Source: Deltaproteobacteria bacterium GWA2_38_16 (lineage in GTDB: Bacteria > Bdellovibrionota > JACOXK01 > 2-02-FULL-40-11). Taken from it: DNA of 64,000 nt. Of this stretch, positions 6,476 to 63,800 are shown piece by piece. The notes below the pieces were generated by a model that did no database searches, was not told where the DNA came from, and was given only the letters and a program-made list of their open reading frames with translations. The stretch is taken from the NCBI GenBank assembly GCA_001797335.1, contig MGPE01000008.1, forward strand, positions 124,001-188,000. The letters are read 5' to 3'. Every line of letters starts with the position of its first letter. Positions within the stretch are counted from its first letter, which is position 1. The position numbers and the translations under genes were made by a program.

Positions 6476-7144
6476 TTACTGAAGAGAGTGAAGAAGCTCT
6501 GGGGTGATGTCGCAGAGGCTTTTGACGGTGTGGTCGGCTTGACTCATATCGTGCTTTAGAGTTGGGCCGCACGGGATGGCAATGCACCACCTCATACCAG
6601 CCGCTTTTGCAGCTTGAACGCCATATTGGCTATCTTCTAAAACCAAAATAGAATGTGGATCAACTTCTAGCCTTTTAGCGCACTCTAAAAAAATATCGGG
6701 AGCAGGTTTCCCTTGTTTCACATCATCAGCACACACAACGGCTTTAAAATAAGATCTTAACTTTAAGGTATCTAAATTAAAGTTCATGACATATTTAGAG
6801 GCGGAAGTACCCAAGGCCATAGGGATATTTTCTTTTTTAAAATAATTAAATAAGGTTTCTACACAGGGGAGAGGTTTGGCGTATTGTTTAAAGATGTCTA
6901 TGAAAAGAGAAGTCCGTCTTTTAATGAGATGATCCATCGGTTCTGTAATCTCAGGATAGCGTTGTTTTAAGATCGTAAAGACATAGGCATCAGTTGTGCC
7001 TAAAAATTCTTTGTCATTTTGATGGGTGTAGTCAATGCCGTAATCCAGGCGAAGCATGCGTTGAAACGATAAAAAGTGCTCCGCCTCAGAATTGACAATC
7101 ACTCCGTCCATGTCGGAGATGACGGCGCGGACTACTTTGTCCAT
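6476..7144 (-). CDS. HAD-superfamily phosphatase / beta-phosphoglucomutase-like
   Basis: Cytoplasmic haloacid-dehalogenase fold hydrolase, 222 residues. Motif I is DMDGVIVNSEAEH with nucleophile Asp11 and acid Asp13; motif II is GTSAS; the motif III lysine is in KQGKPAPD; motif IV is VLEDSQYG. The helical cap between motifs I and II and the sequence GKPAPDIFLECAKRLEV place it with the phosphoglycolate phosphatase/beta-phosphoglucomutase group. Substrate is unknown. Its start overlaps the end of the exported protein gene upstream by 13 bases, so the two are probably translationally coupled. Confidence 0.83.
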   Translation of the reverse strand: MDKVVRAVISDMDGVIVNSEAEHFLSFQRMLRLDYGIDYTHQNDKEFLGTTDAYVFTILKQRYPEITEPMDHLIKRRTSLFIDIFKQYAKPLPCVETLFNYFKKENIPMALGTSASKYVMNFNLDTLKLRSYFKAVVCADDVKQGKPAPDIFLECAKRLEVDPHSILVLEDSQYGVQAAKAAGMRWCIAIPCGPTLKHDMSQADHTVKSLCDITPELLHSLQ

Positions 7145-9177
7145 CCACCATCTTTAAGACTTTGGAATTCTTCGCGAGATAATTTGGGTGCTCTTAATTT
7201 TGCAGCCCACAAAGGCATGGTCATTTGATAAAGCTCTGTATCATCTTGAGCACGGCTTGCCAAAGAGCCTGAGGTCCCCATCCATCTGGGTGTGCCAAAG
7301 GGTAAATCATGTCGATTAATTTGAAGTCTTGTATTTTTAAATTCTCTTTTGTTGTAAGAAAATTTAAAATCGGCTTTTTCGTCTTTTTCGTAGTCTACAT
7401 TGCTTAAGCGTTTTAATACCTCTGTCCAGTTTTGAGCTGCGTCAGGATCTTTAACCGATTTTAGATGAAACACAGGTAGATTTTTTGTTTTAAATTTTTC
7501 CAGTGCTTCTTGGGCCAAAGGTCCCACAGTTAAAATTACTTTTACGTCATTTTGAGATAAAAGTTCTGAAAGAATTTTATTTCTGACTTTTTGAACTTGA
7601 TCATGACCTGAAACTCTTCGAACTTCTCGCTCTGAAAGGTCTAAGGTGTCTACCGGCAGGGTTCGAATAATGACATAGCTTCTGGTAATGCCTGCTTTTA
7701 AGAGAAGATGTTGAAGTTTTTGCCCACCGTCACCGGACAATGCACGTGTGGTAAACATATCATCCTGAGATTCTTGATCGGCTAAGATAACAAAACGGGC
7801 TTCGCTCGGACGTCCTCTAAAAATGGGGCCTGTTCCAAAGGATTTATCAAATGTAACACCCAATTCATTAAAGTCGGGCCATTCAAACCCTTTTTCTTGT
7901 CCCATGAGGAGTCTGGCCCACGCTTCGCCAGGACCTTGATCGTACGCATTGGGATTATTTCTGGGAGGTTCATAAGGAAGATCGCCTTCTTCGTCAATAT
8001 ATCCAGAATCTTTAAAGCTCGATCCATCAGGTGTATGCCATCTGACTTTTTCGTTATAGTGTCCTTTGGCTGAAAAGATTTTAATAGAACGTTGATCGGT
8101 GGTTCTATTCGAAACAGTTCCTCCGGATCCTAATCTAGCGTTGGTTCCAAACGCAAAATCTCGATGGGGAATAGGAGAGCTGTGATATTTATAAGATTTT
8201 TCAAACGTAGCATAGGTTTCTCCATCTTCTGCTTGTCTTTCCACAACCGGAGATCTCCATGCTTCTTCATCAAGAGGGAGCCACTCGGAGTTTTGAGAAA
8301 GTTTTGTGGCGACTCTGTTAGAAGCTTTTTGAAAACTTCCTCTTAACATATCTAAGATTTGTTTACGTTCTGCGTCATTTTTAGCCTGTCCAGACATTCC
8401 GGGGTGAGCCACACCCATCACCACCAAATCTTCTTTTAAAACAGAACTATCGCAGCTTTCTACTACTCCAGCTTGTCGGCAAACGCCCCCTTTGGATTTA
8501 ATCCACGTTTGAAGGGTGTCTTTGGCACCTCCGCCCACCGCTACGATCACTTTTAAACTTTCCTGATTTCTTTTTAAAATTTCATTCAGAAGTCTGTGCC
8601 GGGTTTGAACAATCGGGCTTTGAAGATCTTGAGCCATCCATAAATCTCCCTCTATGGCACCGGGAAGTTTTTTGTCTTGGTATTGGCCTCGAATGGAATA
8701 AATAAAGGTATTCACAAACAAATACGATCGATTTACACCCAAGAAATTTAAGAGCGCTTGCATATGGGTGCCTGTTCCACCCGTAAATGTGTGTCTGGCT
8801 AAGGCTTCATCTTGAGCTCCTTCTTGACCGATCACTAAAATTTTAACTTCGTTTTCTCCCAGTCTTCCTCTGTAAAATACGGGTCCCCAATGCCAACGAT
8901 AACGCTCTTCTCCAATCACAGATCGTCCGATGGCTCTATAGTTAGGAAGAGAGGTAAATATTTTTAAAAAATCAGAATTTTTTTCTGGGCCTTTGTCATA
9001 TTCCCACAAATTTCCTCGGAGAGATCTTCCTTGGATATCAAGAGATGTGTCTTCGATATCTTCAAACTGTGATTCATCTTCTAGATCGTTTGCTTCTTTT
9101 GCTTCCTCGGCTTTAAGCGGTGCGGCCATGAGCAATACAAAAGCCAATAAAATAAAGAAGTTAAGGTTTTTTTTCAT
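7132..9177 (-). CDS. Exported protein with two uracil-DNA-glycosylase-like modules
   Basis: A Sec signal peptide (about residues 1-23, ending LKAEE) is followed by a tandem duplication. Module 1 (about 98-280) has a UDG-like first motif region, VIGQEGAQDE then FTGGTGTHMQALLNFLGVNRSY, a central VAVGGGA strand and a late VAHPGMSG resembling the HPS loop. Module 2 (about 448-590) repeats ILADQESQDD, SGDGGQKLQHLLLKAGITRSY and LTVGPLA but lacks the late His. Each module is followed by a similar tail with FGT and S-R (about 340-358 and 624-642). Similarity to UDG family 4/5 is my reading of spacing and motifs. The Pro of the usual GEAPG is absent, so activity is doubtful. It lies between an exported amidohydrolase (ATGA overlap) and a HAD gene. 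Confidence 0.6.
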   Translation of the reverse strand: MKKNLNFFILLAFVLLMAAPLKAEEAKEANDLEDESQFEDIEDTSLDIQGRSLRGNLWEYDKGPEKNSDFLKIFTSLPNYRAIGRSVIGEERYRWHWGPVFYRGRLGENEVKILVIGQEGAQDEALARHTFTGGTGTHMQALLNFLGVNRSYLFVNTFIYSIRGQYQDKKLPGAIEGDLWMAQDLQSPIVQTRHRLLNEILKRNQESLKVIVAVGGGAKDTLQTWIKSKGGVCRQAGVVESCDSSVLKEDLVVMGVAHPGMSGQAKNDAERKQILDMLRGSFQKASNRVATKLSQNSEWLPLDEEAWRSPVVERQAEDGETYATFEKSYKYHSSPIPHRDFAFGTNARLGSGGTVSNRTTDQRSIKIFSAKGHYNEKVRWHTPDGSSFKDSGYIDEEGDLPYEPPRNNPNAYDQGPGEAWARLLMGQEKGFEWPDFNELGVTFDKSFGTGPIFRGRPSEARFVILADQESQDDMFTTRALSGDGGQKLQHLLLKAGITRSYVIIRTLPVDTLDLSEREVRRVSGHDQVQKVRNKILSELLSQNDVKVILTVGPLAQEALEKFKTKNLPVFHLKSVKDPDAAQNWTEVLKRLSNVDYEKDEKADFKFSYNKREFKNTRLQINRHDLPFGTPRWMGTSGSLASRAQDDTELYQMTMPLWAAKLRAPKLSREEFQSLKDGGWTK

Positions 9178-11550: not shown

Positions 11551-12357
11551 ATGGTTCGAAAGTGTTTTGTATTTCTTCTCATATGTATGTTAGGATCTTT
11601 AAATCTTATGGCCGCACATACGACTAAAAAAATTATTGCCCATCGAGGGCTCAGTGGCAGTTATCCAGAAAATACCCTCATTGCTTTTAAAGAGGCTTTA
11701 CGTACCCAAGCCCTATTTTTAGAATTAGATATTCATTTGTCTAAAGATCAAAAAGTGGTGGTCATGCATGATGAGGATCTTTCTCGTACAACCAATGGAA
11801 GAGGCCTTATTCGAGATTATACTCTGGCCGAACTTAAAAAATTTTCAGCCGGATACTCAAAACAATTTGGAGATCAATTTTCTTCAGAAAAAATTCCTAC
11901 CCTCTTAGAGGTTTTGGAACTTTTAGAGCCATCGGATAAAAGTTTATTGATTGAAATTAAAAGTCATGATGATGATCCTGATTACAATAATCGTATAGTG
12001 GGTCCTATTGTCTATCAAACGGTGATGAAGCCCTATTCTCATTTAAAAAATCGCCTAGCCTTTATTTCCTTTAATGTCTCTATTTTAGAATCGATCCGAG
12101 AGTTAGATAGTGAGGTGAGGCTGGGGCCTATTTTTAATGCCATGCCTAAAACAGGAAGTTTGGCCGATCAAGCGCTACGTTTAAAGTCAGATATCGTTAT
12201 TTTTTCAAAAAAATTGTTGCTCTTGCCCAAGGTATTTCAAAAAACCAATCAAGTAAAACATTTTGTCTATACGGTAGATCCTAAAGAATTTAATTATGTA
12301 GAGACCATTGAGGATCTTTACGGATACGCCACCAACTACGCCGATCAGTTAGAATAG
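11551..12357 (+). CDS. Exported glycerophosphodiester phosphodiesterase
   Basis: Hydrolyses glycerophosphodiesters from phospholipid head groups to glycerol-3-phosphate and an alcohol. The signal peptide (residues 1-22) ends LMAA. The GDPD motifs are intact: IAHRG (His31, Arg32), PENT (Glu40), the Glu58/Asp60 pair in ELDIHLS and the second His73 in VMHDEDLSRTTNG. At 268 residues it is UgpQ-sized but exported like GlpQ. A strong Shine-Dalgarno AAGGAGG precedes the ATG. The neighbouring hydrolase suggests lipid turnover. Confidence 0.88.
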   Translation: MVRKCFVFLLICMLGSLNLMAAHTTKKIIAHRGLSGSYPENTLIAFKEALRTQALFLELDIHLSKDQKVVVMHDEDLSRTTNGRGLIRDYTLAELKKFSAGYSKQFGDQFSSEKIPTLLEVLELLEPSDKSLLIEIKSHDDDPDYNNRIVGPIVYQTVMKPYSHLKNRLAFISFNVSILESIRELDSEVRLGPIFNAMPKTGSLADQALRLKSDIVIFSKKLLLLPKVFQKTNQVKHFVYTVDPKEFNYVETIEDLYGYATNYADQLE

Positions 12358-12365
12358 GTTAGACT

Positions 12366-15300
12366 TTAAGCAGCATAGGCATAGGAAGGCTCATAGGTAT
12401 GATGAGTGTGGATATAATGACGTGGTGGCCAATATTTTTTGTGGAGCCAAGAGTGAGGCTGAGGCATTCTGCGTTTAATCTCCTCAAGTTCTAATACTTT
12501 GTGTTGGCGAATACTCTCGGGTAATTGAGGGGGATCAAAGAGAGTGTCGCCCATTTCTCTTCGCCGGGCATTTTGGTATTGTTCACGGAGATAGAGCATA
12601 TATTCTTCTTGTTGTCTCCGGGGTAAAGAAGTAAATACGTTCTCTACTTCGCGTAGCTGTGGAACGTCATAGGGAGGAAGTAAGCCTTTTCCTTGTCTTA
12701 GATCATAAACAATATGTTCAACCTCAGCCAAATCATGAATGATGGGCCCTCTAATTTGAAATTCACCGGTAACTCCTGACTTAAAAACAATATTCATTTG
12801 TGCGGTCGTATAGCCAGAGGGTCTTACCGCTTCTACTCCTGAGACGACTTCTACTTCGATCCCTTTTTGATGCATGGCCCGTTGAATGCGTTCAATGCTT
12901 GCGTCATCTAAATAAGGAATTCCATTGGGCCCTCTATAATTTTCAATTTTAGTTACTTTGATTTCTCCTCTTTCAATTCCTTGAATGATTTGATCGGTTA
13001 CTTGATTCATGCGGGCGGGAGTGGGTTCTCTTACGATGAGTCGTCCCCCAATACCATCGCTGACATTAGCCGCCGCTTCTCTTAGATTAGTAATGGTTTT
13101 TCCACCCATGGCTTTTCGATATAGTTTTGCGGCAGCACTGGCAGATGATTTATTGCGGAGGCTCACCGTTCCAAAGGTTTCTTCGGGAAATAAATTTTGT
13201 ATTTGTTGTCTGGCAGCCGGTAAATTTTCTCGATACTGAGTGGCCAGTTGGTCTGCAAAGGCGCCCATTCTTACTTTGACTCTTCCTTCAACAAGATTAA
13301 ATACAGCGCCTACTTTCATTCCTCCGGAAGAGCCAAATTTGAAATTTTGAATGCCCATTTGAGCGCCGATTTCATCTAGAATAAGAAGCTTAGAAGGTAA
13401 ATTGTGCAAAGCATTCACCCGGTTTGAAAATGCAGCTTTTCTGGTAGCTTGTTTTAAAAGTTCTAGCCCCTCTGGACTTAGATAATATTGAATAACTTCC
13501 CGATTTAATCCTGATTTAAAAAGGTCCTCTCCAGTTCTTTCGAAGTGAACATCTCGCAATGTTTGATAAACAGTGTTGGAAGCAAGTACGGCAGGGCGTT
13601 CTCTTCCAGCCGCAATAACGGAAGGGTTTAAATGTTGTTGAGCTATGGCTCGTGCACGGGTTCTAGCAGAGGCAATATGTTGAGGGTGAAAAGGATCTTC
13701 GATTCCAATACTTCCAGAGCCAATGCTCATGGTTTGGGTGGTATCTCGTTGAATTCGGGTGGCTCCTTCTCCAACAATTACTTCAGTACTCCCACCGCCC
13801 ACTTCTATAACGATAGCACCTCTTTCTCCAGGGGCTTGATTGTGCATGACGGCTCGATAGACCAACTCAGATTCTTGATGGCCATCAATGACTTCTAAGG
13901 GAAAACCAGCCTCTTTTAACCGCTCAAGAACGGCTGCTTTATTTTTGGCATCCCGAATGCCCGCTGTGGCTAAAGTTCTAACATGGGAAGCAGGGACTCC
14001 ATTGTCTAGGAGATCTTTTTCAATCTTTTTTAAGGCCGTGACTAAAGATTGAAAAGCTTCCTCACTAATTTCTCCACTTTGTCCTAAACTTTTTCCTAAT
14101 CCAATATTGTAATGACGTTCAAAAATCGTTCCGTCCGGTTTAACAACATAAATTTTTGCAGTAGAACTTCCAACATCTACTATGGCTACGGGTTTATTTA
14201 AGACAGCGGGGAGAGCGATAGGAGAACGTTTTGGGGCAGGAGGTCTGGGTGGGGCAAGCGTTGCCACCGAACCCGTTGTTTCAGGGACCGGTGGAGGTTT
14301 GGGAGCAGCCAAAGGAGGTCCCGTGGGAACGTGGGTAGAAGGAACTCGGGTTGGAGTTCTGACAGGGCTAAGTTCATCTGCCAAGATTTCGGCCATCTCT
14401 TCAGGAGAAACATCGACTCCTCTAAATGAAAACTGCAGGGCATCTCGGCCACCTTCTTTAGAGACAGCGGCTGTTTCTTCTGCCACGGCTTTTTGAAGGG
14501 CGGCTTCTAATTCTGCTCCGGATAGGCCTTGTGCCGATAAAGTTTGTCTGGTTTTAGCAGTAAAATTTCTTAAATGTGCGGCTCGAATTTTTTCTCCAAT
14601 CGGTTTTAAAGAAGAAACGGACATGGCTCTTCCTTGCGGATTGGCTAAAATAAAAGAGGTTCTTCCATCGGGGAGAGTACGGATATTGAGCTGCAAAGGA
14701 AGTTCGTGTTCTCTGGCAGGGGCTGACCAAGCAGAAAAGGTTCCAAATTCTGAACTAGATATTTTCCCACCATCAAACACATATACGTGGCCTTTCAGTC
14801 GGGTTACAATGCGCTCGGCTTCTTCGGCAGTTTTTCCTTGTCTCATGAGATTGGTTTTAATATCAGCCACCATGGCTTCATGAGCTGCATTAACAGCTTT
14901 GGATGCCTGAGTTTGCATGCCGGTAAAGGCTCTGGCTCCTTGGGCTCTGCTTTCTGAATTTTTTAAAACATCATCAATCAGGGCTTGTGCTTCTCGCATG
15001 AGTTCTTGTTGTTTTTGAGGTGGAAGCATATGGAAGCGATCTCCTCCAGAAACGCCATATTTTTCAAGAAGAGTGTCGTAGCCATTCAAAATGGCATCTT
15101 GAAGTTCCTTGGCTTCTTTCATGGCTTGAGTCGCTTGTTGTTCAAACCGCGTTCCTCCAAAAAGTGCAAAATCTTCATAAAATGTAGCCAGTCGGATTTT
15201 ATCTCGGAGGGCAGGATTTGCAGCGACCTCATCTAAATGCTGAGAAATCCACACAGCCCAACCGCCATCTCCCAAATTATCTGTTGAAACGCGTCTAAAA

Positions 15301-18300
15301 ATTCGTTTTAAATCTGCCATTTTTTGGGCAGGAGTACCGGGGCCAGACAAACATTCTTCAATAAAATCTAAAACCTGCATTGTGGTATTTCTTTCGGGTC
15401 GTGTAGGATCAAAAAAAGGCCCATGGTGATCAAACACAATTCCTTGAGAACGAGAGGGAGATACTCCTAGATCTGCAGGGGTATCCATAAAGACAAGTCC
15501 TTGGCGTCCCAATTTTCGTTGATATCGTTCTGCAAACACTCTTTGAACTTCTTCAACCGTTAAGGGAGGTAAATTTCTCTGAGCTCGGGAGCGATTAATG
15601 GATTGTGTTACACGTTCAAATCTTTTAGATGCTTCTTCAGCAGCCTCTGTAGCTTTCGGAAGGGCTTCTTGCAGGGGGACAAATTCTCCCGCAGTTCCTC
15701 GAGCCGCTCTTCTCATGGCCAGTTCTTGAGGAGACATTTTGGGAGGACGAAATTTATTTTTAATGGCAGTAGCCAAAGCCGCTGAATTTTCTCTCAGCTG
15801 TTGTCCAAAATACGCTCCCCAGGAACCTGCTTGGGCTCGGCCAGCTCTAAGCACTTCTAAAGGAGATTCTCCCAGGCGGCTAATCATAAATGCTTTTTCT
15901 ACGGAGCCAGCACGGGCAATAAGCGCTTGATTTTTTGGATTTTTTGCAAAGAGTGCTAAAAGTTTTTGCCCGTGAGGCGTTTTTAGCTCTTGGGTTAAGC
16001 GCGCAAGTTGGCGGGTTCTATTGATGCTTCTTCCCACCATTCCAATTCCTAAGCCTATATCTAGGGCAGTAAAACCAGCAGAGATATAAAAATTTCTAGC
16101 GGCATCATCGACAGATGCGTGGGCACGAATGAGTTGATCCATGGCTCCGGGAGCTTTCAGCTCTGAAGATTCCGTCCCATGAGCGTACATAACATCTTGG
16201 GCTTCTTCTAATGCGGCCGATGCTTCATTCCATTTGTCCCAGGCATCAACGGTATAAGCAGCACCGACGGCTCCCCCTACAATAACACCTCCAATCCCTC
16301 CAGCCGGAAGTGTGGCAATGGTAGCAGCGATGGTGGCTCCCATCCCTACGACCATGTCGCTAATACCCACAACGGTTCTAAAAGCTTTAAAAGGGTAACT
16401 TAAATTTTTAATATCGGATTGTATGTCGCAATCGATTTCAGCATATTCAGGATGTTCATCTAAAAATGCTTTTCTTAAATTGGGATTATTCATGAGAAGA
16501 AGCACAGCGGCGGTACGATCGCGATTGGCCTCGGGCGATTCATCGGCAAAACAACTGCGAGCAACATCGGCAGAAGTTTGTGCAAGCCAAGGAATTCCTG
16601 TAATTTTTAGTAGTGGAGAAGATTCTTTCGTCGCCCTAACAAATTCATCATATCCACTGGGGCTATATTTTCCATCTAATGCCTGGCAGGCCATTTGTAC
16701 ACAATACCGAGACATTTCATGAAGCGCGGAATTAAATTGCCGATTAAATTGGGTCTGAAGTTGATTTTTAAGGCCGTTATAGTCAGAAAAATTAACACTG
16801 AAATCTAAATTCCCTCTGCTATGGGTAGGTTCAGTAAAGCTAAAGCGTGGATTGGGAGAAACTTCTTGAATTTTTAATTTTCCATCTAATGCCTGTTGGT
16901 GAAAGCCAATGAGTTGTCCATAGAAATTGGTTTCAAGATCGGATCTATCGGAGCCTCCTCTTAAACTCATATCCAATAAAAATCCATAAGGACCCGATGA
17001 AATAGTTTCTCGAATGGCTTGATCTTCGGCCCAATTTTGTTGGCGGTGAGCTCGTACTTTATCTGAAAGAGTTCGTGAGTAATAATATTGTTTATTATAA
17101 GGTTCAGAAGGATCATCAGGATCAATTTGAGATTGTCTGGAAGCATATTGTCTAAATTGATTTATAATTTCCGATGGTTGAACATGGCCTTGGGCATTTA
17201 CATTCATGAGAGTTCTTAAGAAATGATCTAATTTTTGAGAAGTAAAGTCTGTATACTGAGAAGGAGGTTGAGATTTTTTTGCTGTCAGTTGATCGACAGC
17301 GGCTTGAGACGACATGTCGCATGCTTGCAGGCTTTTTAATGCCGCAATACCTGAATCTAGCTGATCTTGGCTTACGTAATGAGAGGCCATGAGCAGGCTT
17401 TGGGTGAGGCCATCGACCATTTTTTTACGCAATGCTTTTAAATAATCGGATCGAATTTGATCTTTGGATTTTCCTTTGGCTTTTTCAAATTTGACGAGGG
17501 AGTGAACATTTTGATTCAGTTCATCGATAGGGGTAGTGCCAAACGTAGAAGGGCAGACTGCTTCTGTATCTCCAACTGTTTCTTCTCCTCCGGGCAGAAC
17601 GCAGTCGGGAACTTTGACAGCGCGTTTGTGAGGAATCAACACATCGACAAAGGTATCGTCTATATTTTTTTCTAAGGCTTGAGCGGTTTGCTCGGCTCTT
17701 GCACATTTTATATCTGAATGTTGATAAGCGTTTTTAAATCCTTTTAGGGCTTTTCCCATGGTTCGGGCAACATCGGTATTATTGGATTTAAATTGTCCTT
17801 CAGCCCCATCGCTATCGAGAAGAGAACTTAATTGTGAAGAGGCGGTGTGTGAAAAAGAAGGGGTATTTGAAGAACATAGTTCTTTAATTTCCGCTGCATA
17901 ATCTTTTTCCTCTAAAGAATTTAAAAAATGAGAAAGTTTTTTGACCTGATCTTCTTTAGAAAAAGCTTCTGGAATTTCTAAAAGAGCTCTCTGTTTGACA
18001 GATGGATGGAGATTTTTAAGTCCCAGTTCCAGTATTTCTTGATATCTGGGATCATGCTTATCGATAAAAGAAGCGTTTAAGCGCTCCAAAGCTTTTATTG
18101 AATTTTGGGCATTTATGGATTGACCATGGTCTGATAAAATTTGAGAAATAATAGAAAGTTGTTGTTCGTGGGCCAACATGGCACTCTGGTGAGTAGCCTC
18201 AAAAGGATCTGCCATGTCTCGATACACGCGCTCAACGTTGGTTTGAGCTTGATCTACCAGGTCAGCCAATTGTTCTATATTTTGTGCTCCATCAATATTT

Positions 18301-19580
18301 GGGAGGAGGGCTTCATATGCAGTTTTATGTTGAACACTGGATTGATCAATTATTTTTTGAAATGTTTCTTTAATATATTTTTTATATTCTGAGAGCTTAG
18401 CTTCGCTGACAGGTGTTGTTCCCTCTTCTCGGGTGATGTTTTCAAACAGATCTTGAAACAGAGAACCTGAAGTTTCTTCTAAGAAATGATTTAACGTTCT
18501 CCCAAAGGTATATTCAAGATAGCCAGGATCACGTAAAAAATCTGTGGGGGCCGGAGGAGTTTGAAGAAGTGCTTGGGCAGAATCATTTTTAAGATGTCGA
18601 ACCCGTTCAGTAGCAGAATTGAGTGATTGAGCCTCCTCTTGAGTAAGAGTAGTAGGAGTGAATCGAACATATTCATTTAAAGACACCATGGATTGAGTAG
18701 GATAAAATCGGGCATAGGGATCAAAAGGTTTTTCTAACACAAAGCGTGATGGATTGATTTGTTGAATATTTGTTTCAAGTAAAGCTTGGGCCTGTGGCGT
18801 TAAAATTCCTTCTTCATCAAAGTATTCTGGTTTTATAGGGATACGTTGCCGAATGGCATATCCAACTTGTGCAGAGCGGTCAAAAATAGTATTAATCAAA
18901 GTCTGTTTTTGATCATCAGAAAGACGAGCATAATTGGGGAGATCTCCTTCGCGTGAAGCACGTTCTAATTCTTGTTGAATGTCCTCTCGTTCTTTTTTGA
19001 TGAATGCGGCTGTTCTTTGATCATCATCTCCTCCTCCTACAGCGATGACTCGAGTTCGGCTATTTCCCGTTTCACTTCTTGCTAAGAAAGGGGAATTGAT
19101 AACGGTATGCAATGATTTTCCTAGGTCTAGTGTATAGTTTCCTAAATGCCTTAATTCTGCTTCACTTAAATTAGGGATCCCTTGGAGAGATTGTCCTGCT
19201 TCAAGCTGGGCTTGTTGCTCTGCGTTTAAAGGGAGCGTTTGAATATGGTTATAGACTGGTTGAGGAAGGGATGAAACCGTATCTAAAGTAAGTAGTGTAC
19301 TCAGAGTACTTTGAATATGGATTTTATCATCTGTGCTCAATTGATCTGGGGATTGGAGCAATGTAGAGAGCATTTGAATTCCCTGGGCACGAGATGAAAA
19401 GTCATCGCTCGCCAATTTATCAAAGGCTGCTTGAGCTGTGGGATTTTGGATTTCAAAAACATCCTGATTATTAGGGGATGGCTCGGGAGCTTCTAGATAG
19501 GAGTAATGAGAAGACGTCACCACAAAAATAAGCGTAAACGCACTTATGAAAATGGTTTTATTAAAATTTAATGAGAACAT
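12366..19580 (-). CDS. Giant exported multidomain protein: DHH-like, Ppx/GppA and RelA/SpoT-like modules
   Basis: 2404 residues beginning with a signal-peptide-like hydrophobic segment (about 8-22). Residues 30-1050 are helical and featureless to my eye. Two glycine-rich hydrophobic stretches follow (about 1068-1112 and 1165-1185). About 1360-1480 resembles a DHH phosphoesterase: Asp1366, DHHG at 1384-1387, TDN at 1433-1435. A proline-rich linker (1740-1790) leads to a Ppx/GppA-type ASKHA fold (about 1796-2110): VDVGSST, ATAGIRDAKN, IDGHQESE and EVGGGSTE. About 2140-2300 reads as a RelA/SpoT synthetase-like fold: RNK...KLYRK, SDGIGGRLIV (Asp2175, Arg2180), RPSGY (2253-2257), GEFQIRG (Glu2273), EVEHIVYDL. 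The C-terminus is His/Tyr-rich. The reading frame and size are certain; domain calls are by motif. Confidence 0.7.
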   Translation of the reverse strand: MFSLNFNKTIFISAFTLIFVVTSSHYSYLEAPEPSPNNQDVFEIQNPTAQAAFDKLASDDFSSRAQGIQMLSTLLQSPDQLSTDDKIHIQSTLSTLLTLDTVSSLPQPVYNHIQTLPLNAEQQAQLEAGQSLQGIPNLSEAELRHLGNYTLDLGKSLHTVINSPFLARSETGNSRTRVIAVGGGDDDQRTAAFIKKEREDIQQELERASREGDLPNYARLSDDQKQTLINTIFDRSAQVGYAIRQRIPIKPEYFDEEGILTPQAQALLETNIQQINPSRFVLEKPFDPYARFYPTQSMVSLNEYVRFTPTTLTQEEAQSLNSATERVRHLKNDSAQALLQTPPAPTDFLRDPGYLEYTFGRTLNHFLEETSGSLFQDLFENITREEGTTPVSEAKLSEYKKYIKETFQKIIDQSSVQHKTAYEALLPNIDGAQNIEQLADLVDQAQTNVERVYRDMADPFEATHQSAMLAHEQQLSIISQILSDHGQSINAQNSIKALERLNASFIDKHDPRYQEILELGLKNLHPSVKQRALLEIPEAFSKEDQVKKLSHFLNSLEEKDYAAEIKELCSSNTPSFSHTASSQLSSLLDSDGAEGQFKSNNTDVARTMGKALKGFKNAYQHSDIKCARAEQTAQALEKNIDDTFVDVLIPHKRAVKVPDCVLPGGEETVGDTEAVCPSTFGTTPIDELNQNVHSLVKFEKAKGKSKDQIRSDYLKALRKKMVDGLTQSLLMASHYVSQDQLDSGIAALKSLQACDMSSQAAVDQLTAKKSQPPSQYTDFTSQKLDHFLRTLMNVNAQGHVQPSEIINQFRQYASRQSQIDPDDPSEPYNKQYYYSRTLSDKVRAHRQQNWAEDQAIRETISSGPYGFLLDMSLRGGSDRSDLETNFYGQLIGFHQQALDGKLKIQEVSPNPRFSFTEPTHSRGNLDFSVNFSDYNGLKNQLQTQFNRQFNSALHEMSRYCVQMACQALDGKYSPSGYDEFVRATKESSPLLKITGIPWLAQTSADVARSCFADESPEANRDRTAAVLLLMNNPNLRKAFLDEHPEYAEIDCDIQSDIKNLSYPFKAFRTVVGISDMVVGMGATIAATIATLPAGGIGGVIVGGAVGAAYTVDAWDKWNEASAALEEAQDVMYAHGTESSELKAPGAMDQLIRAHASVDDAARNFYISAGFTALDIGLGIGMVGRSINRTRQLARLTQELKTPHGQKLLALFAKNPKNQALIARAGSVEKAFMISRLGESPLEVLRAGRAQAGSWGAYFGQQLRENSAALATAIKNKFRPPKMSPQELAMRRAARGTAGEFVPLQEALPKATEAAEEASKRFERVTQSINRSRAQRNLPPLTVEEVQRVFAERYQRKLGRQGLVFMDTPADLGVSPSRSQGIVFDHHGPFFDPTRPERNTTMQVLDFIEECLSGPGTPAQKMADLKRIFRRVSTDNLGDGGWAVWISQHLDEVAANPALRDKIRLATFYEDFALFGGTRFEQQATQAMKEAKELQDAILNGYDTLLEKYGVSGGDRFHMLPPQKQQELMREAQALIDDVLKNSESRAQGARAFTGMQTQASKAVNAAHEAMVADIKTNLMRQGKTAEEAERIVTRLKGHVYVFDGGKISSSEFGTFSAWSAPAREHELPLQLNIRTLPDGRTSFILANPQGRAMSVSSLKPIGEKIRAAHLRNFTAKTRQTLSAQGLSGAELEAALQKAVAEETAAVSKEGGRDALQFSFRGVDVSPEEMAEILADELSPVRTPTRVPSTHVPTGPPLAAPKPPPVPETTGSVATLAPPRPPAPKRSPIALPAVLNKPVAIVDVGSSTAKIYVVKPDGTIFERHYNIGLGKSLGQSGEISEEAFQSLVTALKKIEKDLLDNGVPASHVRTLATAGIRDAKNKAAVLERLKEAGFPLEVIDGHQESELVYRAVMHNQAPGERGAIVIEVGGGSTEVIVGEGATRIQRDTTQTMSIGSGSIGIEDPFHPQHIASARTRARAIAQQHLNPSVIAAGRERPAVLASNTVYQTLRDVHFERTGEDLFKSGLNREVIQYYLSPEGLELLKQATRKAAFSNRVNALHNLPSKLLILDEIGAQMGIQNFKFGSSGGMKVGAVFNLVEGRVKVRMGAFADQLATQYRENLPAARQQIQNLFPEETFGTVSLRNKSSASAAAKLYRKAMGGKTITNLREAAANVSDGIGGRLIVREPTPARMNQVTDQIIQGIERGEIKVTKIENYRGPNGIPYLDDASIERIQRAMHQKGIEVEVVSGVEAVRPSGYTTAQMNIVFKSGVTGEFQIRGPIIHDLAEVEHIVYDLRQGKGLLPPYDVPQLREVENVFTSLPRRQQEEYMLYLREQYQNARRREMGDTLFDPPQLPESIRQHKVLELEEIKRRMPQPHSWLHKKYWPPRHYIHTHHTYEPSYAYAA

Positions 19581-19670: not shown

Positions 19671-20744
19671 ATGAAAAAGCCTCTTTATACTGTATCGGCA
19701 CCGGGCAGAATTTGTTTATTTGGAGAACACTCGGATTATTTGGGCTTGCCAGTCATTACGATGGCCATGAATTTAAGGCTTACTATTTCTGCGTTTCCCA
19801 GGAAAGACAAAAAGTTTAAAATTATCATGCCCGATATTCATGAAGAAGAAATATTTACCCCAAGTCAGGCCCTTCCCTACACAAAAGAACGAGATTATTT
19901 ACGAAGTGGGGTGAATGTTTTAAAACGTAAAGGATGTTCCTTTTCAAAAGGATATGACTTTTTTGTAAAAAGTAAAATTCCCATTAATTCTGGGGCGTCG
20001 AGTTCATCGGCATTGGTCGTAGCATGGGTGAAAATGCTTTTAGCCCTTCAACATCACGAAAATGAATTTAATCCCATTGAAATTGCCAAACTAGCCTATG
20101 AGGCAGAAGTCTTAGAATTTAAAGAAGCCGGAGGACGTATGGATCATTTTGCGATTTCAATTGGAGAATTGATTTATCATGAAAATCACAAAACCATTGA
20201 TATTCGGTTTTTAGACGAAGCCATTCAAGGCATTGTCTTGGGAGACTCTTTAGAAAAAAAAGAAACCATTGAAACATTGAAAAAAAATAGTCGAGAGGTG
20301 AAAGAAGGATTTCGGCAGATTAAAAAAGTGATTTCAAATTTTAATGTCGAAATAACTCCCGTTCAAGAAGTGTTAAAGAAAATATCTGAAACATCAGATC
20401 CTCTCCAAAAAGCGATGGCAACACTGAAAAATAGAGATATTACGCACCAGGCATTACAAGAATTAGTTTTAAAGCCATTTCAAAATCCTAAAAAAATAGG
20501 AAAGCTCATGAATGAGCATCACTTGATGCTTAAAAAATATTTAAAAATCTCAACTCCTAAAATTGAACGTATGATTAAAGCTTCCCTCAAAGCCGGAGCG
20601 TATGGGGCAAAAATTCATGGTTCTGGCCTGGGAGGTACGATGATTGCCTACGCCCCCGGTCGAGAAAAACAAGTGGCCAAAGCCATTGAGCGTGTCGGCG
20701 GTAAAGCCACTCTTGTCCACCAAGACCGTGGGGTGATTACATAA
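19671..20744 (+). CDS. GHMP-family sugar/mevalonate-type kinase
   Basis: ATP-dependent small-molecule kinase, cytoplasmic, 357 residues. The N-terminus APGRICLFGEHSDYLG matches galactokinase-type substrate loops. The GHMP ATP-binding motif is NSGASSSSAL (106-115), and the C-terminal glycine motif KIHGSGLGGTMIAYAPG is intact. The GEH-SDY element argues for a sugar substrate (galactokinase or galacturonokinase relatives) rather than homoserine, but the substrate is not decided. No pathway partner lies next to it. It is tail-to-tail with the LysE gene, overlapping by 8 bases. Confidence 0.8.
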   Translation: MKKPLYTVSAPGRICLFGEHSDYLGLPVITMAMNLRLTISAFPRKDKKFKIIMPDIHEEEIFTPSQALPYTKERDYLRSGVNVLKRKGCSFSKGYDFFVKSKIPINSGASSSSALVVAWVKMLLALQHHENEFNPIEIAKLAYEAEVLEFKEAGGRMDHFAISIGELIYHENHKTIDIRFLDEAIQGIVLGDSLEKKETIETLKKNSREVKEGFRQIKKVISNFNVEITPVQEVLKKISETSDPLQKAMATLKNRDITHQALQELVLKPFQNPKKIGKLMNEHHLMLKKYLKISTPKIERMIKASLKAGAYGAKIHGSGLGGTMIAYAPGREKQVAKAIERVGGKATLVHQDRGVIT

Positions 20745-21400: not shown

Positions 21401-22006
21401 CTATGGCAAAAGCTTTTTAAGTTTTCTTGAAACAAGTGTGCGCAATTTAAGAGAAGGGATTTTTTTGACAATTTTCCATGCTTCTTTTGTTTTAAAATTT
21501 TGGGGGATTTCAATTTCTGGGAGTGTTTTAAATAAAAAAGAATGAGTTGGGGAAAGATAAAAAATATCAATGAGCGCTTTTTCGGGAGTGGCCATTTTCA
21601 CTCCATGCTTTCCAAAAGATTCAAAACCAAAAAGTAAATTTGGTGTCATATGGTGGATTGAAAAAGTTCCTAAAGAAGTGGCGTAGGTACGTGTTCGAGC
21701 GATAGAAACAGAGTAGATAATGGCTGGAATTTGTGAAATCATTCCATGATAATAAAGGGCTGTTTGTAATGAAATATAGCTTGGAAAAGGAGCTGTAAGA
21801 TATTCTGGGATAAGAAGGGGATCTATCTTTTCTGATACTGCCCAACGACCTCGGGCCAATTTTATAAATTGTCCCCCTTCACAAAGGCGTTTTAAAATTT
21901 TACTGGCATGCATAATGGAAATTTGTAAGCATGCGGCTGCATCCGTAGTGCATATAACGGGTTGTTGAAGAGATAAAAGATCGCGATATGCATTTAAGAG
22001 CTTCAT
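21401..22006 (-). CDS. AbiEi-type antitoxin / transcriptional regulator
   Basis: Second gene of a type IV toxin-antitoxin pair. The N-terminal winged-helix part (about 15-60: TTDAAACLQISIMHASKILKR then LARGRWAV) binds DNA in this family. The C-terminal AbiEi part shows SYISLQTALYYHG and the ATPEKALIDIFY signature. The start overlaps the toxin stop as ATGA. AbiEi proteins repress their own operon by binding inverted repeats upstream, which fits the 36-bp palindrome at 22767-22802. The gene order, toxin first, is the reverse of the usual abiEi-abiEii. Confidence 0.8.
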   Translation of the reverse strand: MKLLNAYRDLLSLQQPVICTTDAAACLQISIMHASKILKRLCEGGQFIKLARGRWAVSEKIDPLLIPEYLTAPFPSYISLQTALYYHGMISQIPAIIYSVSIARTRTYATSLGTFSIHHMTPNLLFGFESFGKHGVKMATPEKALIDIFYLSPTHSFLFKTLPEIEIPQNFKTKEAWKIVKKIPSLKLRTLVSRKLKKLLP

Positions 22007-22755
22007 TTTTTCAGAGTTTGTAAAGTTGTGATAACTTGAGTTTGTATTTCATTCCACCGTTTGGGGATAGAGTAATACTCTTGGTATTCTGTCATGAGAT
22101 AAGCGACAACCTGGCTTTTAAATTCTGGAAATCCAACACCTTTTATCTGCTCTATTGCAAAATCTATTTTTATGGAGGCAGGCAATGATTTAATTTTTAT
22201 GTTTAAATCCAAGAGCCATTTAAGATCAAAAATATCACGTGCCTGGGTTTCTGTTCTAGAAATAAGAGCATAAATTTTTTGGTAAAAAGCGGTTTCTGCT
22301 GAGTAGTGATTGGTGAGGATGGGATAAAGTTGATATGTTTGGATGATGTCTACATCAACGGATTCAAATATAGTCTTTTCAGTCATGGTTCTACGTGAAA
22401 ATTCAATTTTGGTTGGTAGTGGAAGAGAAGCATTGGGTGTTTGAAGATTTAATTTCCATCGTTGTGTGGTATCGGTTTGTTTTGATTCATTTATTTTAAT
22501 GATTTCTATTCCTTTGCTATAGAGGGTTTGTTTAAAGGGCTGTGAATTTAACAGTTTTGTAATTTTTGGACGAAGGGTATCCTTGGCAATAATTTTTACA
22601 TCAAAATCAATGTCTTCAGAATACCGAATACTTTTAAAGAAAAACCGAAGATTGGCTCCTCCCTTAAGAGCGTAAAGATTTTTTTCTAGTTTCCCTTCTA
22701 AATGACGAAGAAAAAGCAAATGAAAAATTTCTACATATTGTTGCGGAGCATACAT
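22003..22755 (-). CDS. AbiEii-type nucleotidyltransferase toxin
   Basis: Cytoplasmic nucleotidyltransferase toxin of 250 residues. The family core LKGGANLRFFF (about 30-40) and SEDIDFDV (46-53) supplies the Gly and metal-binding Asp residues, and a later RDIFDLKWLL matches the conserved helix. Relatives transfer nucleotides to tRNA or similar targets and stop growth, often during phage infection. It is translationally coupled to the antitoxin. The message is predicted to begin about 2 bases before this ATG. Confidence 0.82.
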   Translation of the reverse strand: MYAPQQYVEIFHLLFLRHLEGKLEKNLYALKGGANLRFFFKSIRYSEDIDFDVKIIAKDTLRPKITKLLNSQPFKQTLYSKGIEIIKINESKQTDTTQRWKLNLQTPNASLPLPTKIEFSRRTMTEKTIFESVDVDIIQTYQLYPILTNHYSAETAFYQKIYALISRTETQARDIFDLKWLLDLNIKIKSLPASIKIDFAIEQIKGVGFPEFKSQVVAYLMTEYQEYYSIPKRWNEIQTQVITTLQTLKK

Positions 22756-59606: not shown

Positions 59607-62600
59607 TTAATGTCCATGTCGTTTTGTGCCGGAGGTTGTATAATGGTCGACAATGGCTGAAATGACAATAAGCTGTCTTTCTTTGTCTACCCAGTAATGA
59701 ATCCGAGTCGTATTTGCTCCTCCTCCATGTGTTACGTGAGACCAGGCAACAATAGTTTCTTCTCGATAACCATCTTCTCTCTCTCTTTCCATGGCCGCAT
59801 TAGACATCGTAAGATCTGTTTCTTTGAGGGCTAAGCCAAATCGAGATCTTTGTCCAAAGGCAGTCTCAAGAGGGCCTTTAAAGCTTTTTTCAAAAAGGAG
59901 AGGGTAAAGGTGATCATTGATATCCATCAACATATCCCAAACAATAGAACAGTCTAATTGTCCATTATGTTCTTTGGCTGTTCTTTTGGCCTTATCTGTA
60001 AAAAATAACCGATTTGGAAAATAGGCTTCGAGTACTCTTACAACATCGGGAAGGTTTTGACAGACTTCTTTGACTATTGGATGTGGTCTTTGCTGAGCTT
60101 GTACAGATTCTTTAATGATAGGTAATCTTCCCGAAGATTGCCCTTTTAATTTTTGGAGTTCTGTCGTTGCTCGAGCAAGCTCTTCGGCAGTTTGATTATA
60201 AGTTTCTCTTAAAATCCTTAATTCTTCAGTAACTTCTTTATTAACAGCTTCTAAAACAGCAATTTCGTCACCCAGTTCTCCTCTCTTTGCCGCTTGAAGT
60301 TCTGTTTCTAAGGCTTGAATTCGTTCATCACGATTTTTTACAGCTTTTTCTAAAAGAGCCATTTTTTGTTCTGACCGTGCGACTTCTTGTTCTAAAAAGA
60401 GTGTCCATTCTTGAGCTTCGCTAGGGACGTTGGACTGGGGAGGGGATATTTCCGCTTGGGATCTTTGTTGGATGGCTTGAAGCTCAAGGCTTTGCTTGAG
60501 ATTAACAATGTCTAAAATATCTTGAATAGGTTTTTCACCCCTAAAAATACCTGTCCAATTTGAAAGATATTTAACATTTAAATATCTTAAAATTGTATAA
60601 TAAATCTTATTGATAAAGGCTTTTTGGTTAAAGGTAGCTGTAGGAGGTAAAAGGGTGGGGTGCTCTTCAGCCTTTTCCCAATCTAAATTTGGAAAAAAGA
60701 TCTTTGCTTTTCCATAAGTAGCGCGCATTTTGGAAGGAAATATATGTTCATGTTCTTCTTGGATTTCTGTTTTATTTCCACTGAACTGCGAATCCCCCTC
60801 AACATAAACAATGGCCATTCCTAAAAGTTTTTGAGCAAGTTCTTTTGGATCGATAGGAAGTTTTCCAGTAGAGAGTCTTGAAACATAAACAATAGGAAGA
60901 CTTCGTTGAGGATCTTCTAACATGGTTTTAAATTGAGTTGCTTCCCCTACATGAAGCTCATGGTACTGATCCGAAACATCTAGTTCTGCAGACTTAGTTT
61001 TCCAATTTTTCCCTTCTGAAGGATGAAGTATTTCTCGAACAATTCTAGGACTAGAGGGCCAGGCTTTGGATTCCCGAAGGCTATCCGTCTCTGGCATAAG
61101 CCATCGGTAAACACCTACTACGCATTGAATAGATTTCTCGCGAACGGTGAGTGCCATATCCACTCTCCATGATCTTCCTGGACTTCCTCGATCTGGATGC
61201 TGAACCCTTACGGCCCAATATTGAGGAATTACTTCTGAGCCTGTGCCAACTAGTTTTTCTGTGACAACTGCGATTTCAGGATTTTCCCATGTGCCTCCTG
61301 CCATAAATTGATCTATGGGAAGAGTAAAATCCCTACTATGGCTTAAAACCCATTGATAGATCTGCTGGACGACAGAAGCCCACGGTAAATCACCTTGAGC
61401 GTTGGTAGAAACAATATCAAAGTGAGTGCGATAGTGGAGCGTTTTTCCAAAACTAGAGGAATGAATTCCACTTTGTTCAAGAGAAATAGTTTTGGAGTAT
61501 TCAAATAAGTCTTTTCGACCCCCTTCGTTATTTTCAGAAGCCCCATAGCCATAGTTTGTATTTTTAGGGCTGTTTTCTCCCGCAGATTGTTCTGTTTGTG
61601 GGGTATTATTAAAAGAAAAAACAGCATATTGTATTGGGTTACTCAGGGCTTTTTGATGGGTTTTGGAACCTTCAGTAGTAATCATTAACCCGATTCTCTT
61701 ATGGGGATTTTGAGGATCAGAAGGATCTTTAATAATAATGATGATTATTTTCTTGGGAGGATGAGAAGGATCGTAAGGAGTTCCCGTAATGATCTCTTGT
61801 CTTTTTCTTCTTGTTTCGTAACTTTTAAAAATTCCATTTAAAAAAGATAAATCTTGATGAACTTCTGGATCTAAAAATAAAATGAAATCTCCTCCTGTAA
61901 CGTTTTGTCCTCCTTTTGTAGGAGGGAGAAGAGCTGTGGGAGCCAATCGAGGTGCGGTTTTTGGTAGAACGGCCGTGTCTAAACCATGGGCTTGCCCCAG
62001 GGAAAACAGATTTTGACTAGAGAGCCATTCAGATGGATTTTCTAAAAATGCTAAGGAAGGATTATTGACATGAGGATCCAGTACCGGTTCTTGATAGGAA
62101 GGAATCCCTCCGCTTTGAATATAAGGATCATTTAGAATAGTATCCTCATAGTGGGCATCCATTGCTTCTAAGGGACTTTTTGGATTCCCACGTGGAATAA
62201 CATAACCATCCTCCGAAATTTGATTTCTATTAGATACAGTTTTAGGTGTTAGAACAGGGAATTTAGAATTTTTAGAAATGAAAAATATTTTTGTAGCTTT
62301 GACGGTGATTCCTAAGGTTAAAAGAGCTGAAAAAATACCTTCAAAATATCTTTGATCTGAAAAGGCATCGATAGTTTGGTAAGTGATTAATCCTCCTCCC
62401 AGAAGATAAGCGGTTCGAGGAAGAACAAATGAAAGTCCATTAAAAAGAGCAGCCATAGGGAGCATGACTATAACGTTGGTTACAAATCTTTGTGTGAAGG
62501 TGGTATTGGGTTCAGGTGTTCCAAAAACAACATGATTCCAATCCGGAGCTTTTGCAAACAGTGCGGCCATTGCTACAACCCCCAATGTTCCAGAAGGGCC

Positions 62601-63653
62601 AAGAATTATGGCAGAATAACCGCTCGTAATTAAAACTGTTCCAATAGCAGAAGCTTGTCCCAATAATAATAAACTTCCTTTGGATAAAGGCATCATCGTA
62701 GGCTGGCTTCCGGTCATCTGACTCCACCAATCTACTTTTTTAAATATATATTGAGGATCGGGATGGCTGTGCCGTTCAATAACATTTACATATATAGATA
62801 AAATTTCAAAAAAATCTCTATGGGAAACAGTGTCAGGATTACTGGGATAAAAAGATTCAAAAGATATTTTTCCATTGAGTAGTTCTCTTATTTTTAAATA
62901 AAAAATCTTTCTTAGTTGGGGATAGTATTCGTTGAGTCTCTCATAGTAGTTTCGATCTTCACCACGATCTTGCAGTGCTCCTTGGGCATAACGATTAAAA
63001 TCTAATTCTCTTGAACCAAATTCTGTTTCTAATTTTTCTCGTTTTCCTATTTCTTCTCGTATGGTTTTCCAGGCAGATATCAGTAAATTTTTAAAAGGAC
63101 TGTCGGGAATGTTTTTTAATTCTCGCTCATATTCAGAGGCATTATTTTGTTCAGCCATTTTAGAAACCCGTAAAAGACGATCAATGTTGGCATCAAATTC
63201 TTGAAATTCAGGTTTGTCCCCGAAAAGTGCGTGGAGCTTTTTGTGTTCTGAATAAATAGCAGAGGCATCTATACCTACTTCCTTGGCAAATGTTTCAATT
63301 AGGTTTAGAGCACTTTCTTTTCTTCCTTGGTTTTCTTCTTCTTGCACCAATCTCAACATAAAATGAAAAGTGATATATGTTTCGATTTGTTTTTGAATCT
63401 CTTCCAGGGGAGCTTTAAAGGTTTCATAAATTTCAGAAGCTTTTTCTTCAAAAATTTGAGCCAGTTTTTGATAGCTTTGTTTTTCTGAAATGGAAGAGGA
63501 GATTTCTGCCTGAAATTGAGCTTGGTGAGCCATGGTTTTTAAAACGACATATTCCTGGGTTTTTTTAGATAAATCAGAAGGAAGCTCAGTAGCGCTTAGG
63601 GGAATGGATATAAAAATGATGCCTAAAATAAAAAATTTAAATACCCATTTCAT
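59607..63653 (-). CDS. Second giant exported protein, coiled coil, unknown function
   Basis: From ATG 63653, 1348 residues. Signal peptide ends IPLSATE. Numbering from an upstream in-frame start (+15): helical region 40-330; hydrophobic glycine-rich stretches 341-385, 405-440 and 455-470; low-complexity Pro/Asn regions; a compact domain about 780-1010 with GGTWENPEIAVVTEKLVG, RSWRVDMAL and LPIVYVSR; a coiled coil about 1097-1187; and a C-terminal domain of about 110 residues ending TRIHYWVDKERQLIVISA. The last part resembles a RelE-like strand pattern, only as a guess. Architecture parallels the 2404-residue protein: exported, long helical front, glycine-rich hydrophobic middle, enzymatic-looking rear. 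Confidence 0.6.
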   Translation of the reverse strand: MKWVFKFFILGIIFISIPLSATELPSDLSKKTQEYVVLKTMAHQAQFQAEISSSISEKQSYQKLAQIFEEKASEIYETFKAPLEEIQKQIETYITFHFMLRLVQEEENQGRKESALNLIETFAKEVGIDASAIYSEHKKLHALFGDKPEFQEFDANIDRLLRVSKMAEQNNASEYERELKNIPDSPFKNLLISAWKTIREEIGKREKLETEFGSRELDFNRYAQGALQDRGEDRNYYERLNEYYPQLRKIFYLKIRELLNGKISFESFYPSNPDTVSHRDFFEILSIYVNVIERHSHPDPQYIFKKVDWWSQMTGSQPTMMPLSKGSLLLLGQASAIGTVLITSGYSAIILGPSGTLGVVAMAALFAKAPDWNHVVFGTPEPNTTFTQRFVTNVIVMLPMAALFNGLSFVLPRTAYLLGGGLITYQTIDAFSDQRYFEGIFSALLTLGITVKATKIFFISKNSKFPVLTPKTVSNRNQISEDGYVIPRGNPKSPLEAMDAHYEDTILNDPYIQSGGIPSYQEPVLDPHVNNPSLAFLENPSEWLSSQNLFSLGQAHGLDTAVLPKTAPRLAPTALLPPTKGGQNVTGGDFILFLDPEVHQDLSFLNGIFKSYETRRKRQEIITGTPYDPSHPPKKIIIIIIKDPSDPQNPHKRIGLMITTEGSKTHQKALSNPIQYAVFSFNNTPQTEQSAGENSPKNTNYGYGASENNEGGRKDLFEYSKTISLEQSGIHSSSFGKTLHYRTHFDIVSTNAQGDLPWASVVQQIYQWVLSHSRDFTLPIDQFMAGGTWENPEIAVVTEKLVGTGSEVIPQYWAVRVQHPDRGSPGRSWRVDMALTVREKSIQCVVGVYRWLMPETDSLRESKAWPSSPRIVREILHPSEGKNWKTKSAELDVSDQYHELHVGEATQFKTMLEDPQRSLPIVYVSRLSTGKLPIDPKELAQKLLGMAIVYVEGDSQFSGNKTEIQEEHEHIFPSKMRATYGKAKIFFPNLDWEKAEEHPTLLPPTATFNQKAFINKIYYTILRYLNVKYLSNWTGIFRGEKPIQDILDIVNLKQSLELQAIQQRSQAEISPPQSNVPSEAQEWTLFLEQEVARSEQKMALLEKAVKNRDERIQALETELQAAKRGELGDEIAVLEAVNKEVTEELRILRETYNQTAEELARATTELQKLKGQSSGRLPIIKESVQAQQRPHPIVKEVCQNLPDVVRVLEAYFPNRLFFTDKAKRTAKEHNGQLDCSIVWDMLMDINDHLYPLLFEKSFKGPLETAFGQRSRFGLALKETDLTMSNAAMEREREDGYREETIVAWSHVTHGGGANTTRIHYWVDKERQLIVISAIVDHYTTSGTKRHGH

Positions 63654-63800
63654 CACAAAACTATCCTTGCCTATTAAACTAAGCAAATGGCATGCCAAAG
63701 AACTCTTTCTGTAAGTAGCTGAGTTTACAAATAAATTTATTTTTTATCCTAAATAAAAGTGTCAAAAAAGATATGATAAGTGACAAATTTCGGCAATGAT

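Follow-up and report, generated by a model that had tools for sequence, protein, structure and literature searches.

The protein examined here, P0001, has 2404 amino acids (aa) and is encoded on the minus strand in a stretch of 64,000 nucleotides from contig MGPE01000008.1 of Deltaproteobacteria bacterium GWA2_38_16. This stretch is referred to as the window, and all coordinates are window positions. Three fold assignments in P0001 are well supported, namely a DHH-DHHA1 phosphoesterase-like module, a Ppx/GppA domain and, towards the C-terminus, a RelA/SpoT-type alarmone synthetase (SYNTH) domain. In the most likely reading, with the balance of probabilities about even, P0001 is proposed to be a Sec-exported modular multi-enzyme effector with an exported alarmone synthetase (EAS) at its working end, which would make alarmones within or near a neighbouring cell and consume ATP and GTP for this. 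We infer its export, catalysis, substrate, delivery and target, and the proposed function follows from the analogy to SaEAS and Tas1. The exported alarmone synthetase as a kind is already described, whereas the three-domain fusion seems undescribed.

Fold assignments

The AlphaFold model of the SYNTH domain reached a pLDDT of 90.3 and a pTM of 0.84. Foldseek returned 23 matches with E <= 0.001 for this model, and among the matches listed all were alarmone synthetases or CapRel; small alarmone synthetases (SAS) were matched with an E of 1e-5 and a probability of 1.00. Using VIA-align, SaEAS (PDB 8vx3) was found first (Z 13.4, 184 residues, 3.1 Å), tied with RelP (Z 13.2), followed by CapRel (11.4) and Tas1 (10.0). 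The Pfam RelA_SpoT model (PF04607) does not match P0001 by itself. The homologous P0005 (34% identity, E 2e-34), however, passes the gathering score (1.5e-7) and the Gastranaerophilales-type homologue P0016 passes the cut-off (8.8e-8). A five-row SYNTH profile searched against the PDB had YwaC as its best match (2.9e-5).

The RxK motif (R2142, K2144), D2175, Y2257 and the E-x-Q motif (E2273, Q2275) are invariant in 8 aligned sequences. Where SaEAS/Apk1 have their catalytic-site Asn, the proteins of this alignment seem to carry Gln, Asn or His, as read by eye, and for this reason the base specificity is not predictable. A degenerate Ppx domain upstream of SYNTH in P0005 and P0015 was considered and rejected, as hhalign gave no support for it (E 0.17).

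The Ppx/GppA domain is matched over its whole length by PF02541 (2.2e-23; 83.6 bits compared to a gathering score of 27) and TIGR03706 (1.8e-32, residues 1798-2096). Solved exopolyphosphatases in the PDB match down to 8e-15 (3mdq), and 14 columns are invariant across ten Ppx proteins of the phylum and P0001. In MTB-PPX1, Arg84 and Glu112 are the catalytic residues and Asp135 and Glu142 the metal ligands (PMC3411833). The catalytic Arg/Glu pair is retained in P0001 (R1876, E1903). The Glu of the metal ligands is kept (E1933) and the Asp is replaced by Glu (E1926). Further changes are N to S at position 1806 and G to Q at position 2006, and the diverged second half no longer has the RAD motif. 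Judged by its sequence the domain is a member of the Ppx/GppA family of exopolyphosphatases and pppGpp phosphohydrolases, and its activity is uncertain. It differs from these enzymes in the D to E and N to S changes, in the lost RAD motif and in being fused into an apparently exported protein.

For the DHH module, the AlphaFold model based on a 13-row alignment had a pLDDT of 81 and a pTM of 0.76. Nearly all of the 50 VIA-align matches listed were DHH, DHHA1 or DHHA2 proteins, led by PF0399 (Z 9.6), PggH (8.9), PAP phosphatase (8.5) and RecJ2 (8.2), and followed by RecJ, Cdc45, NrnA, DhhP and yeast PPX1. The leading rows span model residues about 62-520 and thus both domains. Foldseek alone was weak, with E > 0.3 only, though several DHH proteins stood near the top. 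Among the 13 aligned relatives D1366 is near-invariant, and D1384, H1385, H1386 and D1434 are invariant. Furthermore, hhalign placed motifs II and III on NrnA of the same phylum with an E of 0.04, compared to 0.12-0.45 for unrelated controls. Since one superfamily fills the list and motifs II, III and IV follow in exact order, the assignment is convincing although each Z is middling, and residues about 1290-1744 are predicted by the model to adopt the DHH-DHHA1 fold.

Motif I (DxD) is absent in all 13 aligned relatives, with no conserved Asp before D1366. For this reason the module is described as DHH-DHHA1-like only, and DHH catalysis would depend on a different arrangement of ligands, for which D1438 and D1470, both invariant in the 13-row alignment, are candidates. 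The Pfam DHH model (PF01368) had no match in P0001 or in the eight relatives scanned, and the module profile found nothing relevant among PDB sequences. Single-sequence searches of P0001 with Pfam, NCBIfam and PADLOC detected neither DHH nor RelA_SpoT. The two-domain fold and the D...DHH...D motifs are common to P0001 and the DHH-DHHA1 phosphoesterases (PF0399, PggH, PAP phosphatase, RecJ2, NrnA, DhhP); in contrast to these, P0001 lacks the DxD of motif I and a Pfam DHH match and is apparently exported.

The initial annotation had named all three modules from their motifs, and all of these motifs were found where it had placed them. The positions checked are Asp1366, DHHG (1384-1387) and Asp1434; VDVGSST (1801-1807), ATAGIRDAKN (from 1871) and EVGGGSTE (1926-1933); RNK (2142-2144), SDGIGGR (2174-2180), RPSGY (to 2257), GEFQIRG (2272-2278) and AEVEH (2285-2289). 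The DHH-like module could be specified as DHH-DHHA1 by predicted structure and fold search. The Ppx/GppA module was recovered by Pfam and NCBIfam, and the RelA/SpoT module by the Pfam match of a homologue, the profile, the model and the fold search. The core active-site residues are retained in SYNTH, but the other two active sites are not canonical, with motif I absent in DHH and, in Ppx, the metal ligand at position 1926 changed and the RAD motif lost. The interpretation given in the initial annotation is supported in part. The 2404-residue open reading frame (ORF) was confirmed exactly, and its minus-strand orientation, not stated before, was added. The ORF and its motifs are not due to chance: the frame is open over 7.2 kb, three segments have independent homologues in other genomes, and conservation among the relatives falls on the very residues that had been named. 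The features of P0001 are listed in Table 1.

Table 1. Features of P0001 with residue numbers and window positions.
Feature	Residues	Window position	Strand	Evidence
Whole gene P0001	1-2404	12366..19580	-	2404 codons from ATG
Hydrophobic signal-like N-terminus (predicted Sec signal peptide or anchor)	1-31	19488..19580	-	hydropathy peak at residues 3-22; heuristic score 2.87
N-terminal region of unknown fold	32-1069	16374..19487	-	restricted to three genomes from one family
Gly-rich hydrophobic stretch, possible membrane hairpin	1070-1106	16263..16373	-	hydropathy
DHH-DHHA1 phosphoesterase-like module	1240-1744 (fold about 1290-1744)	14349..15863	-	AlphaFold model, VIA-align, 13-row alignment
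DHH motif III	D1384-H1385-H1386	15423..15431	-	alignment; motif II Asp is D1366, motif IV Asp is D1434
DHHA1-like subdomain	1552-1744 (model 328-520)	14349..14927	-	partial VIA-align matches over model 328-518 (PPX1, NrnA, AlaRS C-Ala)
Pro/Ala-rich linker	1745-1795	14196..14348	-	sequence
Ppx/GppA (ASKHA) domain	1796-2100	13281..14195	-	Pfam, NCBIfam, PDB, conserved columns
RelA/SpoT-type SYNTH domain	2093-2347	12540..13304	-	AlphaFold, Foldseek, VIA-align, alignment
Pro/His/Tyr-rich C-terminal tail	2348-2404	12369..12539	-	sequence

Occurrence in other genomes

The phylum survey comprised 368 genomes. The SYNTH module was found in 7 of these, in proteins of 337 to 613 aa with Sec-type starts and in one protein of 1243 aa; the 337-aa protein of genome G365, composed of a signal and SYNTH, resembles SaEAS. 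The DHH-like module was found in 17 genomes, the weakest few matches falling on unrelated proteins such as DnaK. Clear DHH-module proteins either have 540-630 aa and Sec-type starts or have 750-1471 aa with the module in or near the C-terminal part. Outside the phylum, SYNTH was identified in gut Candidatus Gastranaerophilales and in a goat-caecum genome. There it is placed at the C-terminal end, or close to it, in proteins of 833 to 1786 aa. These proteins have Gly-rich hydrophobic stretches, and SYNTH was once found alone. Since the modules mostly occur in separate proteins, P0001 combines parts that are elsewhere found apart. No relatives were found in viral contigs, phages or plasmids at the sensitivity used.

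The N-terminal 1,240 residues of P0001 were found only in genomes G000, G001 and G002. The match to the protein of G002 covers residues 55-1263, beyond which that protein departs into a repetitive tail cut off by the contig end. Flanking genes showed no match between the genomes sharing this region. Relatives of the N-terminal region in three further genomes were discarded, as the weak matches did not reappear when ORFs were compared and an FKBP protein was among them.

Several of the large relatives carry further regions. Giants of the Gastranaerophilales or goat-caecum genome with terminal SYNTH (1167-1786 aa) are located at L079:3573-8711, L086:468-5825, L088 and L090. The one at L079 has a PRTase-CE match just under the cut-off, and that at L086 a stretch resembling an HExxH peptidase, as read by eye. 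The 1471-aa protein at L061:761-5173 (G080) has the DHH-like module followed by a further C-terminal domain of unknown type. In the 1243-aa protein at L032:3689-7417 (Bacteriovoracaceae SZUA-425), SYNTH is followed by about 300 residues of unknown fold.

N-terminus and genomic setting

P0001 begins with the sequence MFSLNFNKTIFISAFTLIFVVTSSHYSYLEA, which is signal-like as judged by hydropathy but shows no evident cleavage site. Together with the Sec-type starts of homologous small proteins, this N-terminus speaks for the export proposed in the initial annotation. The signal-like test was passed by 15 of 20 module-bearing Bdellovibrionota proteins, among them the 337-aa protein of G365; of the background ORFs, 36 of 89 passed (Fisher p 0.005). 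This test is a simple heuristic with a high background pass rate, and several failures were due to start-site assignment; the counts are modest evidence that these proteins may be exported. Pfam and PDB sequence searches found no match for residues 32-1069. Gly-rich stretches resembling residues 1070-1106 were read by eye in P0008, P0012, P0016 and P0018.

The open frame around P0001 totals only 2407 codons, so that the start is nearly fixed, and the opposite (+) frame over the gene is full of stops. The downstream neighbour is a convergent GDPD gene (+) ending at 12357, 9 bp from the P0001 gene, and the upstream neighbour is a divergent GHMP kinase gene (+) beginning at 19671. Because both neighbours run away from or towards it, the gene forms a single-gene unit. 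No same-strand gene lies downstream, and a candidate immunity gene was not found at the locus. The GC content is raised (0.43 compared to 0.385). A foreign origin by composition was rejected, since this rise stems from Ala/Pro/Gly-rich coding and the GC content at third codon positions (GC3) is within the range of the neighbouring genes.

The source genome has a size of 2.0 Mb and is rated 100% complete. It encodes a separate ordinary RelA/SpoT protein (721 aa), a Ppx protein (313 aa) and DHH proteins elsewhere. With its ordinary Rel and Ppx present, P0001 is additional to the housekeeping set and not needed for the stringent response. Secretins and TolC-type proteins are also encoded in the genome.

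Further genes of the window were recorded. An AbiEi/AbiEii toxin-antitoxin pair is located at 21401-22755 (-; AbiEi PADLOC 9.7e-30, AbiEii Pfam 3.6e-18). The gene at 7132-9177 (-) encodes an apparently exported protein with two halves of uracil-DNA-glycosylase (UDG) fold (PF03167, 1e-9), which are 25% identical (E 4e-10); a periplasmic UDG-fold protein is odd. At 59607-63698 (-), 40 kb away from P0001, a second giant signal-bearing protein (1363 aa) was found. It has a central hydrophobic stretch and no Pfam match, and follows the general plan of P0001 with another C-terminus.

Possible roles of P0001

Exported alarmone synthetases were defined in mBio in November 2025. They carry a Sec signal, are encoded at isolated loci that lack an immunity gene, have a high turnover and are toxic if kept in the cytoplasm; antagonism or signalling are their possible roles (PMC12691689). 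The term was found only in this paper within the open-access literature, and its searched text mentions neither Bdellovibrio nor Gastranaerophilales. Nothing matching was found in the open-access literature on alarmone synthetase-GppA fusions or Bdellovibrio alarmones, and no paper describing the set of DHH, Ppx/GppA and SYNTH, in agreement with the initial annotation, which had regarded this set as undescribed. Owing to the published precedent (PMC12691689) P0001 is less novel than an undescribed kind would be, while the three-domain fusion is still unusual, as is its occurrence in a phylum that includes predators.

P0001 shares the SYNTH fold and an isolated locus with SaEAS of Streptomyces albidoflavus and VpEAS, and its signal-like N-terminus would correspond to their N-terminal export signal. 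The absence of a same-strand downstream gene matches the published EAS loci, which are isolated and without immunity genes (PMC12691689). SaEAS is, however, a small single-domain enzyme, whereas SYNTH in P0001 ends a chain with two further enzyme folds, and the identity in the structural match is 15%. RelP and RelQ (6ewz, 6fgk, 5ded; Z 12-13, tied with SaEAS) have the same fold but are cytoplasmic stand-alone enzymes. The type VI secretion system (T6SS) effector Tas1/Apk1 (PDB 6ox6) and toxSAS also share the fold and the C-terminal, toxin-like position. They differ from P0001, which is structurally less similar to them than to SaEAS/RelP, has no immunity gene and is encoded in a genome without a T6SS sheath gene. 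For polymorphic toxins an adjacent immunity gene would be expected, which the P0001 locus lacks.

In the proposed mechanism, the N-terminus would take the chain across the inner membrane, thereby shielding the producer from its own synthetase, and the large N-terminal region with the Gly-rich hairpin would function in delivery or in anchoring to the surface. Once outside the producer, within or close to a neighbouring or prey cell, SYNTH would move pyrophosphate from ATP to GDP/GTP (or ADP/ATP), which would drain nucleotides and yield (p)ppGpp or (p)ppApp. This product may have its 5' phosphate trimmed by the Ppx/GppA domain or may be bound by that domain in a regulatory role, and small nucleotides may be cleaved by DHH-DHHA1. 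A complete alarmone circuit in one exported chain, in which SYNTH makes pppGpp/pppApp, the GppA-like domain trims it and DHH-DHHA1 degrades small nucleotides, would make P0001 a self-regulated predatory or antagonistic machine outside the producer; this extended version appears improbable.

The architecture is effector-like, because the modules form small proteins by themselves or are placed towards the C-terminal end of various large ones, and the N-terminus is shared with G002 while the C-terminus is not. The SYNTH-terminated giants of Gastranaerophilales, one of them with the PRTase-CE match below its cut-off, fit this picture. Several observations weigh against an effector. The different C-terminus rests on one sister genome, G002, whose contig ends inside the gene, and the modules are patchy and rare in the phylum. 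No T6SS sheath gene was found in the genome and a delivery route was not identified. P0001 could simply remain in the producer's own envelope. The missing immunity gene is also expected for a non-toxic periplasmic enzyme. The domains without motif I (DHH) and with a diverged second half (Ppx) may, one or both, be inactive. An enzyme serving the producer, periplasmic or surface-anchored, would turn extracellular or prey-derived nucleotides into alarmones or sense them, with DHH and Ppx degrading or trimming the products, and would be no weapon. This role would fit the lack of an identified immunity gene and delivery system and the presence of other exported nucleotide-related proteins in the genome, for example the tandem UDG-fold protein at 7132-9177. 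It would also fit SaEAS, whose Km values suit low extracellular nucleotides and which harms neither its producer nor two other Streptomyces species (PMC12691689). It is nevertheless rather unlikely, since the synthetase consumes ATP, which the periplasm lacks, and a common N-terminus with a different C-terminus and a module at the ends of unrelated giants look like effector shuffling.

It is possible, though less likely than not, that DHH and Ppx are degenerate binding or regulatory modules and that only SYNTH is active, which would make P0001 an EAS with large accessory parts. The absent DHH motif I and the Ppx changes at positions 1806, 1926 and 2006 together with the lost RAD motif point in this direction, as do two PPX-GppA family members that differ in activity and are inhibited by pppGpp, which they do not hydrolyse (PMC3411833). 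On the other hand, the conservation of motifs II-IV and of several Asp residues across 13 divergent proteins argues for a kept metal site, and in Ppx the catalytic Arg and Glu are retained together with one metal ligand of the two. Complete loss of catalysis or a decaying fusion pseudogene would agree with the unusual length and the single full-length example. Given an intact frame of 2404 codons in a genome rated complete, a GC3 in the range of the neighbours and the retention of all SYNTH catalytic residues, such decay is very improbable.

Alarmone synthesis has long been regarded as cytoplasmic, and the phylum Bdellovibrionota includes bacterial predators. As a putative exported effector, P0001 places an EAS-type domain in this phylum, fused to two other phosphate-handling enzyme folds. 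Single-domain versions such as the 337-aa protein of G365 are easy to assay. Furthermore, P0001 and its relatives define an apparently exported DHH-DHHA1-like family unrecognised by the sequence libraries searched. If active, P0001 would connect extracellular alarmones with predation or antagonism.
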